Origin: Candidatus Bathycorpusculum termitum
GTDB lineage: Archaea; Thermoproteota; Bathyarchaeia; Bathyarchaeales; Bathycorpusculaceae
NCBI GenBank assembly: GCA_031254875.1
Contig: JAIRTW010000075.1
Span: forward strand, 1-35,107
Length of the DNA stretch: 35,107 bases
Direction: 5' to 3'
Numbering within the stretch: the stretch's first letter is position 1; every line of letters starts with the position of its first letter. Below the pieces are notes generated by a model. It did no database searches, was not told the DNA's origin, and saw only the letters and a program-made list of their open reading frames with translations. Below are positions 10,662 through 22,953 of the stretch, one piece after another. Made by a program: the position numbers and the translations under genes.

Positions 10662-11845
10662 TGAAGAAGATACTCTCTCCAAATCTTCGAAGCATACGCT
10701 TTTTATTAATCACTCATACATTTGCTACCGGTCCTCCTCAGGAATTGCGGGATTTTTTTATAAAAAATGATATTTCATTTTCTTTTTTAGAGCACCCCTT
10801 TTCTTACAATCACCAAGACAAGCACTCAAAAGTTACCTTGTTTGAATCTGGAAAAAAAGTCAAAACCATTATGGGGCCAAACTATGGTGGTGGTGACTTA
10901 CTGCATTTTTTACTTGATTTTTTGTTAACATTCTATTTTGTTATTCGAAGCCATAAGCGCTATGATGTATGTATTGCCGCCGATAATCTGAATGCTGCCG
11001 CCTCAGTTTTTCTAAAAAAACTGGGATTCATCCGAAATTTGATTTACTGGACAATCGATTATACACCAAATAGATTTGGAAACGCCTTATTGAACGCTGT
11101 TTTTTATAATCTTGATACATTCAGTTGCACTCAGTCAGACCTATTATGGAATAGCTCAAAGCGTATGAATCCTGCCCGAGCAAAAAGGGGTGTAGCTATC
11201 TCTAACTGCGCTCCTGAGGTCATTGTTCCTGATGGTTGCCATTTCGAAGAAATAAAACGGTTAGATAGTAGTGCTGTCAATCGTTTTAAGTTAGTTTTTA
11301 TGGGGCATCTCGTCAAAAATAAAGGTGTCGATTTACTGATTACTGCGTTGCCTGATTTACTGCAGATGTTTCCGCAGGTCAGCTTAACAATTATCGGAAC
11401 TGGTCCTGAAGAATCGAACTTGAAAAGAGTTGCTTCCTCCCTAAACCTTGATGATAAGGTTTTTTTCACAGGGTACATAAAAAACCATAAGCAACTTGAA
11501 CAAACTATTGCTGGTTGTGGTGTGGGTCTATCGCCATATGTTCCTGATCCTAATAGCTATACGTTCTTCTCTGATGTAGGCAAGGTCAAGGTTTACTTGG
11601 CTTGTGGGTTGCCTGTTCTGATAACTGAGGTGCCTGAAATTGCGACTGAAATACAAAATAATGGTGCTGGGTTAATTTTTAAGTATGACGTTCAAAGTTT
11701 TATGGCAAAAGTGAAATTGTTGATAGAAGATGAAGTGCGGTATATGGAGTATCGGCGGAATGCCCTTTATTTTGTAGAAAATTTAAGCTGGAACAATGTT
11801 TTCAATGAAGTTTTAAATCAGTCAATCGTACATTTTAAAACATGA
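10661..11845 (+). CDS. GT4 family (GT-B fold) glycosyltransferase
   Basis: 394 residues from ATG 10661, which shares its A with the preceding TGA. The C-terminal nucleotide-sugar domain is clear: FKLVFMGHLVKNKGVDLLI (about 209-227), LTIIGTGPEESNLKRVASSL and VFFTGYIKNHKQL, then YLACGLPVLITEVPEIATEI, where GT4 enzymes hold the donor phosphates and ribose. The usual EX7E is degenerate (SDVGKVKVYLACG). The N-terminal domain is acceptor-side and divergent. It is the last gene of the first plus-strand run; its TGA directly abuts the stop of the convergent dehydrogenase gene (TGATCA). Confidence 0.83.
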   Translation: MKKILSPNLRSIRFLLITHTFATGPPQELRDFFIKNDISFSFLEHPFSYNHQDKHSKVTLFESGKKVKTIMGPNYGGGDLLHFLLDFLLTFYFVIRSHKRYDVCIAADNLNAAASVFLKKLGFIRNLIYWTIDYTPNRFGNALLNAVFYNLDTFSCTQSDLLWNSSKRMNPARAKRGVAISNCAPEVIVPDGCHFEEIKRLDSSAVNRFKLVFMGHLVKNKGVDLLITALPDLLQMFPQVSLTIIGTGPEESNLKRVASSLNLDDKVFFTGYIKNHKQLEQTIAGCGVGLSPYVPDPNSYTFFSDVGKVKVYLACGLPVLITEVPEIATEIQNNGAGLIFKYDVQSFMAKVKLLIEDEVRYMEYRRNALYFVENLSWNNVFNEVLNQSIVHFKT

Positions 11846-17524: not shown

Positions 17525-19609
17525 ATGTATCTGTCCAAGCTGCTCGACGATAAAAAATATGAGTATCCATTAGTGGTTCTCATGTTTATTGCGATTTCAG
17601 TGTTTTTTCTCTTGAGGTTAATCACTAGTCCTGGCGAGATTGCGCAAGGTGATTGGGTTATCCCATTAAATTCTGAAGTAGCGTTGAATGATTTTATTTC
17701 TCATCTACATGTTCGAGTGTACAACGGCTTTGGTGAAGCGGCTGTTGGTCGTTTCGGTTTTCCTTTTTTCAAACTGTTTAATGCTGTTTTAGCTCCGTTT
17801 GGTTTTGTAGGTGGAGCTGAAATAAAGCTTTTGGCGGTTTTTTTGGTTGCGTTAGGTGGGATTACAACTTACTTTCTGGCTAGGTCATTTCATTTAAAAA
17901 AGTCGTCCTGTTTTTTAGCCGGGCTCTTTTTTATGTCTACGCCTTTAGTATTTAATTGGCTTATTTTTGGTTGGATGTATTATTTATTTGCTTATGGTCT
18001 TTTCCCATTGATGCTTTTAGTCACTAAAAAATTTGCAGAAACGAATAATTTACGGTATGCTCTTATTAATGGGTTAATTTTTTCAGTCGCAACTATACAA
18101 CCAACTTTTATCCTTATCTATCCGTTACTATGCTTTGTTTTTTTGTTGTTTGAGTTTAAATGCGGTATAAATACCTTAAAACGTGCAATATCTCTAATTA
18201 CTATCTCTCTAACAGTCTGGTTTCTTTCATCTCTTACCTTTTTTATATCATTAAATAATTATGACTCTCTCTCATTTTATTTTTTTGACTATATTGAGGG
18301 TGTAACTGCACAATTCATAAATTTTTCTACGTTAATAAATCCTATGAGGCTCTGGGGAAGCACATTTAATTATCAATTTGAGACATATTTCCCTCAACAA
18401 CTAATCCTGTTATCCTTCATGCCCATTGTTGTCGCATTTGTTGCTCTTCTACTTAAGCCGCATAATAAACGGGTCCTCTTTTTTTCTTTCTCCTATCTTT
18501 TTGTTTTTTTGTCATATTGCGTGTATCATAATATGCATTATATAATAAATAATGTTCCTTACGGTGCGATTTTTGAGTCTCCCAGCATTTTCTTAGTTCC
18601 AGCGAGCCTGGGCGTGGCAGTATTAATTGGATATGTACACCAAAACCTGCCCGTGTTTTTAGCTAAAACAAAAAAATTAAAGCTATCCTCCCTCAAAATT
18701 TTATCTTTTGTTTTTATCCTATTCCTGATTATTTCTGCAGGAACTCCATGGTGGATACAGCAAATTTCTGGTGAACCAATAAGAGGGGTTCCCCATAAAT
18801 TAAATTTGTACGAAATCCCTCCAGCAATCAAAACTTGGCATGAAAACCTTGGCGGTGATCCTCTTTATTTTGTTCTATATTTGCCTATGGCGCGAGACGT
18901 ACAACTCGTCAATAGCGCATATTTTTCAGAGGAGCACGAAGGCGTTAATGGTGGAATTTTTACTCTAGTTAACACTCTGCCTTATGTATCGCTTCCAAAC
19001 GCTACATTGTTTCTAGACGAGTTAATGGGGTCCTCTGAAATAGGTGAGCATTGGGGGAGCCTCAGTATAAGATACATCGTAGTATACACCAATGTTTATA
19101 ACGCCTATAATACAACCGACATAGTAGACCGCCTCTCCGGCCAGAGTGGGATAGTGCAGGTTATAAATTCTCCTGACATAATTGTTTTTGAAAATACATT
19201 TGTAAAGCCTGTAGTTTACGCTAAAGAGGCTTCTGATGTATCTGTTCAAATAGTTTACCAAGACCCAACTATGTTTAAAGTTCAAGTACAGGCAAATGCT
19301 TCGTTTACTCTTGTGTTTAATCAAGCTTTTTCAAATAATTGGTGTGCGTGGGTTAATGGCTCTCTTTTATCCAAAATAAATCACTTCAAGGATGCGAACG
19401 GTTTCAACGCATGGCGGGTTGACTCGGCTGGGGTGATGAGTATCGATTTATATTATGAACCGCAAACAATTTATTTGATAAGTGAAATTATTGCAAGTTG
19501 CTCATTGAGTGTGATATTAATCTACATAGCTGTTGTTTACGCCAAAGAATTTAGAGTAAATCTTAAAAAGTCCAGCGCTCTTGGGAACAAGAGAATGTTA
19601 GGTATCTAA
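17525..19609 (+). CDS. Very large polytopic membrane protein, GT-C-like paralogue
   Basis: 694 residues: about eleven membrane helices in residues 17-420, an external domain (about 420-655) and a final helix (about 658-680). The first external loop carries IAQGDWVIPLN (about 39-49), again an acid where GT-C enzymes have theirs. External motifs FTLVFNQAFSNNWCAWVNG, HFKDANGFNAW and IVFENTFVKPVVYA match those in the protein at 8277-10661 in order and spacing, so both share one architecture. A role in transferring lipid-linked sugars on the outer face is inferred. Codon use is AT-rich. It is 21 bases ahead of a GT4 gene, likely co-transcribed. Confidence 0.75.
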   Translation: MYLSKLLDDKKYEYPLVVLMFIAISVFFLLRLITSPGEIAQGDWVIPLNSEVALNDFISHLHVRVYNGFGEAAVGRFGFPFFKLFNAVLAPFGFVGGAEIKLLAVFLVALGGITTYFLARSFHLKKSSCFLAGLFFMSTPLVFNWLIFGWMYYLFAYGLFPLMLLVTKKFAETNNLRYALINGLIFSVATIQPTFILIYPLLCFVFLLFEFKCGINTLKRAISLITISLTVWFLSSLTFFISLNNYDSLSFYFFDYIEGVTAQFINFSTLINPMRLWGSTFNYQFETYFPQQLILLSFMPIVVAFVALLLKPHNKRVLFFSFSYLFVFLSYCVYHNMHYIINNVPYGAIFESPSIFLVPASLGVAVLIGYVHQNLPVFLAKTKKLKLSSLKILSFVFILFLIISAGTPWWIQQISGEPIRGVPHKLNLYEIPPAIKTWHENLGGDPLYFVLYLPMARDVQLVNSAYFSEEHEGVNGGIFTLVNTLPYVSLPNATLFLDELMGSSEIGEHWGSLSIRYIVVYTNVYNAYNTTDIVDRLSGQSGIVQVINSPDIIVFENTFVKPVVYAKEASDVSVQIVYQDPTMFKVQVQANASFTLVFNQAFSNNWCAWVNGSLLSKINHFKDANGFNAWRVDSAGVMSIDLYYEPQTIYLISEIIASCSLSVILIYIAVVYAKEFRVNLKKSSALGNKRMLGI

Positions 19610-19633
19610 AGATGTTTTTCTGGGAATAATGTG

Positions 19634-20842
19634 ATGAACAAAAAGCGTGAAAATGAATTGCAAAATGGCCTTTTTGAAGATTTCCATATGATTGCTTTTT
19701 TGAACTCTTATAGTGAAGGCTTGAGTGGAAGCGATCTGCGATTCATAGAGCTTGCTGAAAGAATCGGCAAAACTAAGAAACTAAACTTAACGATCGTGAC
19801 GTCAAACTTGGGGAAAAGGCTGTGTGAAGCAAGAGGTCTAACAGCCACGTTTAGTGTGACTTCAAAAGAAGACAAATTAATTAATATACTCCCTACTTAT
19901 ATCCGACGAATAATTTTTGCAATGTTTCTTCGTCTTGACCCAAATAAGAATTGTATTTTTTATTCTACTTCAGATTTTCTGCCTGATGTTTTTCCTGTGT
20001 ATGTCTTTAAATTAACTCATAAACAAACAAAATGGGTTCAACTAATTCATCATATTCAGAAAAATCCATTTACTCGGAAAGGTAAAAGTTTCTTTATAAA
20101 CTTTTTAGGCTTTCTCTCTCAGAGATTGAGTTTTGAACTCTCAAAAAGTAGTGCTGATTTGACAATTGTTGTGAATCCAGCGATAAAAGACCAACTTTTA
20201 CAAACGGGTTTTAACAGAAACAAAATCGTTGTAAATTATAATGGTGTGGATTTACATAAAATTCAAAATTTTATCCCGTCTAAAGAAAAGTTTGATTGTG
20301 TTTTTCTTGGAAGAATTAATGTTTCGAAGGGCATTTTTGATTTAATTGACGTTTGGCATCGCGTTGTAAGCACGAACCCTAAGGCGAAACTTGCAATTAT
20401 CGGTAAAGGCGACAATCATACAGAGAAACAATTATATGATTATATTACAAAGTTGCATTTACATGACCATATACATTTATGTGGCTATCTCAATGATCTC
20501 GAAACCTTTGGAATTTTAAAATCCTCTAAAGTGTTTATTTTTCCAAGTTATGAGGAGGGGTTTGGTATCGCTATATTGCAGGCGATGGCTTGTAGTTTGC
20601 CTGTAGTGGCTTATAATCTGCCAGTTTATCGAGAAATTTTTGAAAACACAATTGTAACTGTGCCCTTGGGCAACACTAAACTTATGTCTGAACGTGTGAC
20701 TTTTCTATTAGAGAACCCCGCTGCCGCCAAATCGATTGGCGCGGCAGGTGTAGAGTTAGCAAGCGATTATGACTGGGATAAAATTGCGCAACGAGAAATC
20801 CAATTAATCGAGCGACTAAACGGGGATCATTTCCATAGTTAG
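19634..20842 (+). CDS. GT4 family (GT-B fold) glycosyltransferase
   Basis: 402 residues from ATG 19634; the GTG just before it is the alternative. The N-terminal acceptor domain includes MIAFLNSYSEGLSGSDLRFIELAERIG. The donor domain has FDCVFLGRINVSKGIFDLI, AKLAIIGKGDNHTEKQL and HLCGYLNDLETFGILKSSKVFIFPSYEEGFGIAILQAMACSLPVVAY. The EX7E motif is present except that its second acid is Gln (EGFGIAILQ), a position that contacts the nucleotide ribose. That change is tolerated in some relatives but deserves note. It lies just outside the left boundary of the methyltransferase unit and is the last plus-strand gene before it. Confidence 0.87.
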   Translation: MNKKRENELQNGLFEDFHMIAFLNSYSEGLSGSDLRFIELAERIGKTKKLNLTIVTSNLGKRLCEARGLTATFSVTSKEDKLINILPTYIRRIIFAMFLRLDPNKNCIFYSTSDFLPDVFPVYVFKLTHKQTKWVQLIHHIQKNPFTRKGKSFFINFLGFLSQRLSFELSKSSADLTIVVNPAIKDQLLQTGFNRNKIVVNYNGVDLHKIQNFIPSKEKFDCVFLGRINVSKGIFDLIDVWHRVVSTNPKAKLAIIGKGDNHTEKQLYDYITKLHLHDHIHLCGYLNDLETFGILKSSKVFIFPSYEEGFGIAILQAMACSLPVVAYNLPVYREIFENTIVTVPLGNTKLMSERVTFLLENPAAAKSIGAAGVELASDYDWDKIAQREIQLIERLNGDHFHS

Positions 20843-20891
20843 TGGTTGAATTGCCCAGAAAAAACACTGCATAGACAATTAACTTGACCCA

Positions 20892-21133
20892 TAATTTAGT
20901 GGCGGGTAGAAATACCTAAAAATGGTTTGTCGCAGGGTTTAATTGAGCTTTACAAACTGTTATGTCTTTAGGGGACCTTCGAAAACATGTTTTGACTGAT
21001 TTGTCGGGTCACTATTTTCGATTAGATGGTGGGGGACAGGCGTGGCTCCCGCTAAGAAGACATACCGCTCAAAAGTATATGCCCGATTCAGCCGCGCAAT
21101 ATGTTGCCCCAGCACGCACCAACCCCACACAAC
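20892..21133. other. Non-coding stretch beside the methyltransferase, locally GC-rich
   Basis: This stretch lies inside the repeat-bounded unit between its left end and the 3' hairpin of the methyltransferase. From about 21025 the sequence is clearly more GC-rich than the flanking genes, with runs of G on the plus strand near 21028 and many CG/GC steps. Overlapping open frames exist on both strands but resemble nothing and have no ribosome site. It might be the remnant of a lost gene from a donor with higher GC. Confidence 0.4.
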
Positions 21134-21158
21134 GCACAAAAAGCCCGCCCATTTGTGC
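21134..21158 (-). terminator. Hairpin directly after the methyltransferase stop
   Basis: GCACAAA (21134-21140) pairs with TTTGTGC (21152-21158) around an 11-base GC-rich loop. It starts right at the methyltransferase stop codon on the minus strand, and the stem ends in a T-run on that strand, as expected for a 3' end. Confidence 0.5.
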
Positions 21159-21824
21159 TCATATTTTGGCGGCCGCCACAGTCTTTGATTTGATAATATA
21201 TCCGATTTCAAATATTTTTATGACAAATTTTCTTTTAAAAGGCATTTTTTCAATGTTAACGCTGTTTTTAATGTTTTTACCCAAAACTATTGAGTACAAT
21301 GCAATATCTGACAAATCGGCAGACACATAGTTTTCAGGTTTTTTGGCTATAAGAAAAACTCCCGGCGCTTCATAATCTTTTTTTAGAACAATGATTTCAA
21401 AATCAGAAAATATCTTCTTAATATCTTCAATCTCATATCGCCAAAAATCAAAGGGATAACCATGGTAGCCAAAACCCTTAGAACGAGTTGTAATAGCAAT
21501 GTATCCGCCCCTTTTCACAGTAGCCTTCATCGCTTGTATTGCAACTCTCCAATCCTCTACATGCTCCAATAGCTCAGTAGAAATTAACAAATCAAAGGAT
21601 TCGACACCAAAGTGTATTGCAATTTTTTCTACAGGCAGAACCAAATCAACCATATTTCCCGATGAAACATCAACGCCTATGTATTCTTTAGGCGTAGAGA
21701 AATTCTGTATTAGCGGACGTATGCTACCATTTACGTTTTTGCTCCCAATTTCAAGTATTCTTTTAGCTTTAAAATCTTCAGTTTTCATGTTTTCAATGAA
21801 AAACTCTAAACCCGATTTTAACAT
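21159..21824 (-). CDS. Class I SAM-dependent methyltransferase
   Basis: 221 residues. RILEIGSKNVNGSIRPL (about 23-39) is motif I for S-adenosylmethionine. IGVDVSSGNMVDLV carries the acidic motif II residue, and FDLLISTELLEHVEDWRVAI is the Methyltransf_11-type motif. GGYIAITTRSKGFGYHGYPFDFWRYEIEDIKKIF resembles methyltransferases found in polysaccharide clusters, where they methylate sugars or other small groups; the target is unknown. It is the only gene in a unit bounded by inverted and direct repeats, so it was possibly gained as a cassette. No promoter was assigned. The next minus-strand gene upstream (uxs) is separated from it by the right-hand repeat. Confidence 0.85.
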   Translation of the reverse strand: MLKSGLEFFIENMKTEDFKAKRILEIGSKNVNGSIRPLIQNFSTPKEYIGVDVSSGNMVDLVLPVEKIAIHFGVESFDLLISTELLEHVEDWRVAIQAMKATVKRGGYIAITTRSKGFGYHGYPFDFWRYEIEDIKKIFSDFEIIVLKKDYEAPGVFLIAKKPENYVSADLSDIALYSIVLGKNIKNSVNIEKMPFKRKFVIKIFEIGYIIKSKTVAAAKI

Positions 21825-21948
21825 GTTATCCCTTTCTTGGTTTCTGCTTTGCTGTTTGTTTTATAATCTCTGTTTTATCAACGTTTTCACGGCTTTTTGC
21901 CATTTGTTTTTTGTGGGTCAAGTTAAGTGCATAGACCTGGTTGTGTTG

Positions 21949-22953
21949 TTATTTTGCGAACCACTCAATAGTTTTTTGTAATCCTTCTTCTAATGCAATT
22001 TTGGGTTTCCAACCGACAATTTTTTCCAACTTTGAAGTATCTGGACAGCGTCGCTTTGGATCATCTTTAGGTAACGGCTGAAAAACAATAGTCGATTCGC
22101 TTTTTGTTATTTCTTTAATTTTTTGCGCTAACTCAAGAATAGTAACCTCTTGTGTGTTGCCTATATTCACAACTTCTCCGATAGCCTCAGAATTTGCCAC
22201 TAACAGAAGGAGCCCTGTCACTGTATCTGAGATATAGCAAAATGATCGTGTTTGTTTTCCATTTCCATAGACGGTTATGTCCTGTTTTGCTAATGCTTGG
22301 GCAATGAACCGCGATAGAGCTCTACCGTATAACCCGTCTTCACGCAGACGTGGACCGTACGAGTTAAAGATTCTTGGAACTCTAACATCTAATCCATACT
22401 GCTTCCTATACGCCATAAGTAACGCCTCTGCAAACCGTTTTCCTTCATCGTAACAGGATCGTGGACCAATCGGGTTAACGTTTCCCCAATAAGTTTCAGG
22501 TGTAGGAATTATTTCTGTATCGCCATAGGTTTCAGAAGTCGAAGAAAAAAGTAACGTTGCATCATTTTTTCTGGCGAGCTCAGCCATGATAAACGTTCCC
22601 ACCGCACTGGTCTGCAGTGTTTCGATTGGACGCGTTTGATACTCATCTGGCGAAGCGTGCCCTGCCATGTGAATGATAAACTCAAATTTTTCATCACTTT
22701 TAAAAGTGCAAACATCGGCTTGAACAAACTTGACTCGGGCTTGCTTGATGAGGTGTTCTATGTTTTTTATTCTGCCTGTTGATAAATCATCAACAACAGT
22801 TACTTGAGCGCCGAAATCGGTAATCAAATCACATATCCAGCTACCTATAAAACCAGCGCCGCCGGTAACGAGAATTTTCTTGCCTGCGAAAACATCGTCT
22901 TTTACAATACTCTTTATGCTTTCAAGATCATTACAAATAATATCATCCATCAT
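21949..22953 (-). CDS. uxs: UDP-glucuronate decarboxylase (UDP-xylose synthase)-like SDR
   Basis: 334 residues. ILVTGGAGFIGSWICDLI (about 27-44) is the NAD motif; VDDLSTGRIKNIEHL, HMAGHASPDEYQ, SSTSETYGD and the strongly diagnostic YWGNVNPIGPRSCYDEGKRFAE (active-site Tyr and Lys in YDEGK) identify the UXS group. It converts UDP-glucuronic acid to UDP-xylose with enzyme-bound NAD+. galU and ugd next door supply that substrate, so the call fits the context. The start overlaps the galU stop by four bases (ATGA), and the two minus-strand genes form an operon. A 4,6-dehydratase or simple epimerase activity is the alternative but less likely. Confidence 0.85.
   Translation of the reverse strand: MMDDIICNDLESIKSIVKDDVFAGKKILVTGGAGFIGSWICDLITDFGAQVTVVDDLSTGRIKNIEHLIKQARVKFVQADVCTFKSDEKFEFIIHMAGHASPDEYQTRPIETLQTSAVGTFIMAELARKNDATLLFSSTSETYGDTEIIPTPETYWGNVNPIGPRSCYDEGKRFAEALLMAYRKQYGLDVRVPRIFNSYGPRLREDGLYGRALSRFIAQALAKQDITVYGNGKQTRSFCYISDTVTGLLLLVANSEAIGEVVNIGNTQEVTILELAQKIKEITKSESTIVFQPLPKDDPKRRCPDTSKLEKIVGWKPKIALEEGLQKTIEWFAK

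Follow-up and report, generated by a model that had tools for sequence, protein, structure and literature searches.

In a 35,107-nucleotide contig of Candidatus Bathycorpusculum termitum, hereafter the window, a methyltransferase gene lies inside a 1,051-bp unit which we consider to be, with fair probability, a non-autonomous transposable element of the mobile insertion cassette (MIC) kind, the gene having been inserted together with its ends. Inverted ends of insertion sequence (IS) type and a target duplication are present, a passenger gene lies between them, and a transposase is absent. The enzyme that serves the unit in trans is presumably a transposase of the IS50 group, related to Tn5, judging from the sequences associated with the same ends elsewhere.

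Boundaries of the unit

The unit extends from 20877 to 21927, between exact 9-bp direct copies of TGCATAGAC (20868..20876 and 21928..21936, both read on the plus strand) that form a target-site duplication. At its right end, on the minus strand, the terminal inverted repeat is the exact family form CTTAACTTGACCCACAA (21911..21927). The left terminal inverted repeat, AATTAACTTGACCCATAA (20877..20894, plus strand), is one base longer than the family form and its outermost base is changed: it has no terminal C and has gained one extra base. The 13-mer TTAACTTGACCCA, found at 20879-20891 (plus) and 21914-21926 (minus), is set asymmetrically with respect to TGCATAGAC, with two bases (AA) between them on the left and one (G) on the right. 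No further exact copies of TGCATAGAC or TTAACTTGACCCA exist elsewhere in the 35-kb window. The 9/9 score of the window duplication includes a one-base shift, allowed at the altered left end.

An earlier note on this DNA had pointed to the direct and inverted repeats, and their positions are as it gave them. We considered whether they might have arisen by chance, or have a regulatory role, beside a methyltransferase gene that is an ordinary resident of the locus. A 13-bp inverted repeat taken alone is not significant, as the window holds three perfect pairs spaced 150-3000 bp apart and 300 dinucleotide shuffles yield a mean of 3.3; such pairs are therefore expected by chance in a window of this size. 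Against that explanation, the window has one 13-bp pair with an exact 9-bp direct repeat no more than 2 bp beyond each arm, and the 300 shuffles have none.

Site of insertion and comparison with relatives

To the left of the unit lies a gene for a group 1 glycosyltransferase (19631..20842, plus strand; 403 aa; PF00534, E 3e-31), convergent across the unit with the right neighbour (21949..22953, minus strand). The latter encodes an NDP-sugar epimerase/decarboxylase-like protein (PF16363/PF01370) which we take to be uxs-like; its stop codon lies 12 bp beyond the right duplication, and the protein is 83-87% identical in four relatives. The genes uxs, galU and ugd are kept in all seven relatives examined that have a full uxs homologue. 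In none of these seven does the stretch examined near uxs contain the window methyltransferase, and two of the seven loci hold weak methyltransferase matches (26-27%) elsewhere. A methyltransferase at this very spot without the repeats, which would have spoken for a resident gene, was sought in relatives and is absent from these seven. The comparison is confined to full uxs homologues, leaving aside G012, with a partial uxs, and relatives with uxs-like DNA such as G048, G011, G024, G016 and G029.

By eye, no shared sequence is recognisable beyond the uxs stop in the seven relatives, and no clean empty site is seen among them. A site with a single TGCATAGAC is not visible because no shared sequence remains there.

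The window also encodes, at 17525-19609, a 694-aa protein without a Pfam match that adjoins the glycan genes; full-length relatives of it, with 46-54% identity, are found in five relatives examined.

Inner anatomy of the unit

Both extremities of the unit belong to one family of miniature elements (MITEs). The left end occupies 20877..20970 on the plus strand (BLAST homology reaches ~20959, and MAFFT carries it weakly to ~20970), and the right end 21825..21927 on the minus strand (21840-21927 by BLAST, to ~21825 by MAFFT, again weakly). The homology therefore runs ~80-90 bp inward on each side by BLAST, and perhaps ~95-100 bp by MAFFT, with weak support at the inner edge. Over 59 bp the left end is 97% identical to an isolated end on contig C52 of the same genome.

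Next to the left MITE end lies the remnant of an IS5-family element (20971..21152, minus strand), made of one terminus and part of the C-terminus of a transposase; the remaining sequence and the second terminus are missing from the unit. The remnant matches DNA of contig C18 of genome G014 (79% over 107 bp, 91% over 35 bp), and this contig encodes a transposase with DUF772 and DDE_Tnp_1. The IS5-family transposases of G014 and G019 are 347-348 aa long and match both domains, and G019 is the only genome in which both termini of that element were found. The window terminus shows 2 mismatches in 32 positions to a pattern composed from relatives, to which the relatives themselves score 6-8 mismatches of 32 owing to small gaps. 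The earlier note had described a transposed unit delimited by its repeats; the repeats stand as described, homology to MITE ends reaches deeper into the unit than the repeats that it noticed, and the IS5-family fragment had no place in that description.

The passenger is a predicted class I SAM-dependent methyltransferase of 221 aa with an intact frame (21159..21824, minus strand; PF13489, E 3.2e-9), which confirms the gene proposed between the repeats. The right MITE end extends nearly to its start codon; since the two adjoin, a promoter of its own, if the gene has one, would sit inside the MITE end. The only transposase sequence in the unit is the short IS5-family fragment, and no IS50-group transposase was detected in the window by tblastn at E 1e-3. 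The unit differs from a MITE, which is free of coding sequence, in its 221-aa open frame, and from a composite transposon, in which two complete IS copies flank the cargo, in that it has only two ends of one MITE family.

One may ask whether the gene once lay between two complete IS50-group elements of which the ends alone have survived. Both ends are of IS50 type, and an 839-bp gene-bearing unit in G001 (see below) has a second, inner left end, as such a past might leave. The window ends are, however, two different ends of one MITE family, ordered as in gene-free copies, and the same tblastn search of the window, at E 1e-3, gave no IS50-group transposase match; neither inner IS ends nor IS50 transposase remnants were found beside the gene. 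We regard a decayed composite transposon as very improbable.

A dispersed family of ends

The repeat of the window unit is found at the ends of IS elements of the Tn5/IS50 group (IS4 family), of gene-free MITEs and of a second gene-bearing unit. In the whole genome that holds the window, the 13-mer with at most one mismatch occurs 17 times, versus once for a reversed-pattern control, and the 17-mer CTTARCTTGACCCACAA, at the same threshold, 15 times versus none (2.3 Mb, 123 contigs). Seven of these 15 copies form part of paired units: two each on C23, C48 and C108, and one at the right of the window unit; the left end of that unit, with two mismatches to CTTARCTTGACCCACAA, lies outside the 15. 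For another seven (C1, C20, C32, C51, C56, C69 and C115) the contig stops on the inner side within ~1.6 kb, as expected of repeats in a fragmented assembly, and the last is the isolated left end on C52. When a lone promoter element was looked for among the 15, none was found.

The C52 end (L129, ~10946-11100) is enclosed by inverted repeats of type TACTACAACGAAC. A similar sequence is also seen in L187, and by eye the C52 end may sit inside a MITE of another family.

Across 100 genomes, CTTARCTTGACCCACAA with at most one mismatch is present in 13, the present one included, with 91 matches versus 3 for the control. Twelve of the 13 belong to the same genus (12 of its 32 genomes, again counting the present one), and the thirteenth, from another family, has a single match. 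When up to three mismatches are allowed in the 32 genus genomes, counts are near control in many of them, among the matches listed.

The MITEs of C23 and C48 in the same genome are 362 bp long with exact 9-bp duplications; they have the terminal repeat in common with the window unit and belong inside to a different MITE family. The IS copy of C108 measures 1,236 bp and has an 8/9 duplication. Gene-free copies of the window's own MITE family, with both MITE ends as in the window unit, were found in G026 (C52, 251 bp), G002 (C151, 187 bp) and G023 (C154, 358 bp), together with further end fragments. At the two of these copies that were tested, in G026 and G023, the flanks do not match as a duplication.

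A search for paired ends, which the earlier note had proposed for this and related genomes, gave 10 pairs in the window and 60 loci, versus none in one mononucleotide-shuffled set, and the cargo includes a second gene. Five of the pairs have a duplication of 8 or 9 matching bases out of 9 (the window, G001:C61, G001:C104, G004:C57, with 9/9, and C108 of the present genome), and three have 7/9 (G004:C2, G020:C51 and G028:C112, one end of which has 5 mismatches). Of the remaining two, that of G001:C73 has no matching duplication (4/9) and that of G008:C5 ends at a contig end. One-base shifts were allowed, and the values for the window, G001:C61 and G001:C104 depend on one; the set of loci excludes C23 and C48 of the present genome and the G014 unit described below.

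Dispersed units with independent 9-bp duplications contradict a chance or regulatory origin of the window repeats; the transposase genes behind the same ends and the lack of the gene beside uxs in 7 of 7 relatives also speak against it. In our judgement such an origin is extremely improbable.

At G001:C73 (L118:4684-5998), the gene of a 224-aa ArsR-type HTH protein lies between two good ends of IS50 type with a spacing of 1,315 bp; this may be a resident gene with a separate insertion on either side.

The IS50-group transposase as presumed partner

In the genome that holds the window, C1, C32, C56 and C108 each have a transposase gene, or a piece of one, directly inward of the same end, and the presence of IS elements with these ends supports the MIC reading. 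The C1 pieces match PF14706 (Tnp_DNA_bind) and PF02281 (Tn5 dimerisation domain), and the C108 piece matches PF14706. The copy in G008 is full-length (461 aa, PF14706 and PF02281), with matches to the NCBIfam IS4-family model NF033590 (1e-101) and to Tn5 transposase in PDB (4e-33). Its alignment to Tn5 transposase spans what we take to be the catalytic DDE positions, and the residues agree. The YREK motif is present in the broken copies of C1 and G001; in the full-length G008 copy its R is replaced by C. An undamaged IS50-group transposase was not seen among the copies of C1, C32, C56, C108, G001 and G008: the C1 gene is interrupted by stops and a frame change and that of C108 by eight stops, the copy in G001 is broken, and those of C32 and C56 run off their contigs.

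At G008:C5 (L114:6422-8880), an IS50-group element bounded by matching ends contains an IS1-type transposase gene (PF03400), and the contig stops exactly where that element ends.

Members of the IS50 subgroup are described in PMC2266710 as having 8-9-bp duplications and ends of the form CW------Y---CA-A--W-. Duplications of 9 exact bp are found at the window unit (with a one-base shift), at C23 and C48, and in G014. Of the seven fixed positions of the end consensus, the window unit agrees at six on its right side, as do four IS ends, with G at the Y position, and at five on its left side. The window unit resembles IS50/Tn5 in its 9-bp duplication, its 5'-CT ends, the six fixed positions of its right end and the related transposase behind the same ends; it differs in having no transposase and in the G, instead of Y, at end position 9. 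The paired IS copy in G001, at 1,649 bp, is longer than the 1,350-1,550 bp given for the subgroup, whose members come mostly from proteobacteria (PMC2266710).

The following course of events can be proposed. A MITE with IS50/Tn5-type ends would have taken in an IS5-family fragment and the methyltransferase gene; an IS50-group transposase, encoded by an IS that shares these ends at another place in the genome, would have cut at both ends; and the whole unit would have been inserted into the gap between two surface-glycan genes that converge there, with 9 bp of the target duplicated. This proposal supposes that a working transposase exists and acts on the window unit in trans.

A second gene-bearing unit

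A small gene between paired ends in G001 was found in 4 of the 32 genus genomes, G001 included. In G001 itself (C104; L119:4598-5436) the unit is 839 bp long, with a 103-aa frame and a duplication ACTATAACC/ATTATAACC that matches at 8/9 once the left end is moved by one base; this is the unit with an additional inner left end. The G004 unit (C2; L115:4906-5373) has 468 bp, a 98-aa frame and a 7/9 duplication (TGTAATAAG/CGTAAGAAG), and that of G014 (C6; L186:4534-5003) has 470 bp, a 102-aa frame and a 9/9 duplication (GTTGAGTGC/GTTGAGTGC). The fourth match, in G020, is cut by a contig end.

The units of G004 and G014 are 80% identical when aligned end to end, and blastn detects no other similarity between their loci; likewise, tblastx at 1e-6 finds nothing in the other three loci that matches the sequence on either side of the G001 unit. 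The simplest reading of these sequences is that units with these ends carried the gene to different sites. The same gene between the same ends at three different sites, in three species, suggests gene transport by ends of this type. The G001 protein has no Pfam match. Values of dN/dS between 0.50 and 0.58, together with the open frames, suggest that the gene is under weak constraint; one TGA lies inside the G004 match.

Distribution of the methyltransferase and the order of events

The methyltransferase is rare. A protein search of 100 genomes found it in three: the present genome, with one copy, G005 (52%) and G045 (a weak 32%). A three-sequence profile at E 1e-25 retrieved it from 3 of 256 genomes of the class (the present one, G005 and G135), and a profile scan of genome contigs with a two-sequence alignment gave 2 loci, the present genome perhaps lying outside that scan. 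Homologues with 51-57% identity come from Ca. Bathyarchaeota palsa_986 (on PKYH01000136.1, identical to G005:C103), Desulfurococcaceae archaeon AG1 and G135 of the class. Relative to two of these three, dN/dS is ~0.14 with dS near saturation; for the third it was not computable. Genes for glycosyltransferases, FkbM-type methyltransferases or ABC transporters are found at most a few kb away from the AG1 and G135 homologues, and the G005 homologue is flanked by IS transposase genes. With up to 3 mismatches, IS50-type ends were found at none of the G005, AG1 and G135 loci (one flank only in AG1). Base composition gives the gene no foreign mark: its GC content is 34%, compared with 36-37% in the three glycan genes to the left.

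We also considered that the transposase genes beside the G005 homologue might be of the window's IS5 type. This idea was dropped: the transposases share 25% identity over 111 aa, and the window IS5 terminus was not found in L128 with up to 9 mismatches of 32.

A DNA search of the 100 genomes, the present one included, revealed no second copy of the methyltransferase unit among the best three candidates per genome. The single known copy counts against movement of the whole unit; the altered left end, the missing duplications at the two gene-free copies tested and the damage in every transposase copy seen also weigh against the cassette reading. With one copy and no clean empty site, the MITE could have been in place before it received the gene. 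In such a nested history, an empty MITE landed first between the two glycan genes, an IS5-family element with the methyltransferase entered later, and a deletion followed; later entry of fragment and gene into a resident MITE would produce an identical anatomy. The 9-bp duplication would then mark the MITE only, and the gene would never have travelled in the unit. Bare copies of the same MITE family exist, the IS5 terminus starts about where the MITE homology stops, the G005 homologue lies between IS transposase genes without these ends, and the gene occurs once in its genome with no second unit among the candidates just mentioned; all of this agrees with a nested order. Two observations oppose it. 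The duplication is still exact and the inner IS5 element is reduced to ~180 bp, a combination that would demand much change after a recent landing; and the second gene-bearing unit points to gene transport by units with such ends. We therefore favour a cassette over successive insertions, and hold the latter to be unlikely, albeit deserving of some weight; the same modest weight goes to its corollary, a gene that never moved with the unit.

For the preferred MIC reading, in which the methyltransferase would have travelled with the unit rather than entered later, the enzyme may methylate the glycan made by the neighbouring genes. The earlier note had read the unit as a small mobile cassette bringing a glycan-tailoring gene into a surface locus. 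This proposal is partly supported: the ends, the 9-bp duplications and the second gene-bearing unit fit it, movement of the whole unit is probable, and methylation of a glycan is plausible. Its further suggestion of a route to rapid surface variation is not supported, with one copy known and its left end altered.

Relationship to known elements

MICs are known in bacteria. MIC231 and related cassettes of the Bacillus cereus group reportedly derive from the IS231 subgroup of the IS4 family and carry a passenger gene and no transposase. The window unit is similar to MIC231 in its IS4-family ends, its passenger gene, the lack of a transposase and a target duplication of about one helix turn; unlike MIC231, it has ends of the IS50/Tn5 subgroup, an archaeal host and a MITE family that also exists free of genes. 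The IS231 duplication is 10-12 bp in a table of PMC2266710, versus 9 bp at the window unit. According to that paper, as of 2008, passenger genes on IS4-family elements were found in the IS231 subgroup only, other groups not having been thoroughly searched.

A qnrS2 cassette associated with a MITE has been described on the Aeromonas plasmid pAC3 (PMC5444012), where cassette and MITE are both viewed as IS derivatives told apart by the presence of coding sequence. Like the qnrS2 cassette, the window unit is short and non-autonomous and has a passenger gene. The pAC3 cassette differs in its ends, in the 4-bp repeats at its MITE and in its location on a bacterial plasmid, and the MITE lies inside it, whereas the MITE ends of the window unit are the cassette ends (PMC5444012). 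Prokaryotic MITEs resemble the window unit in being short, with IS-type ends and gene-free copies that have the same ends (187-362 bp); unlike them, the window unit carries a gene.

A survey of Thaumarchaeota from 2019 counts composite transposons that carry passenger genes among the element classes undetected in archaea (PMC6563490). Our limited literature search, with subscription papers mostly outside its reach, found no archaeal MIC of IS50 type. The kind of element is thus known, and the combination of IS50 subgroup and archaeal host appears to be new within the bounds of that search.

A family of ends that includes gene-free and gene-bearing units, one of the latter recurring in three species, illustrates how, in an uncultured lineage of archaea, a MITE might turn into a carrier of genes, and such a route could bring tailoring enzymes into surface-glycan loci. 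A broader speculation, which we regard as doubtful but worth stating, is that MITEs with Tn5-type ends are general gene-capture vehicles in this genus, acquiring unrelated genes through nested insertions and reshuffling them as cassettes that borrow a transposase. The captured genes would then be the glycan methyltransferase and the small gene, with its hydrophobic stretches, some of them delivered into a surface-glycan locus, a part of the speculation that is no less doubtful. If true, archaea would have a system of gene cassettes distinct from both integrons and composite transposons.

Homologues and ends in viral contigs

Four homologues of the methyltransferase, with 44-50% identity, are encoded on IMG/VR contigs classed as viral (L191-L194); IS50-type ends were not found at these four loci with up to 3 mismatches. 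The exact end pattern occurs in seven stretches of viral contigs. In one of them, L198, a piece of an IS50-like transposase (33%) lies behind the end. On the IMG/VR contig L201 (3350-3507), two facing 17-base ends with 1 and 0 mismatches lie 158 bp apart, in an arrangement that resembles a tiny MITE.
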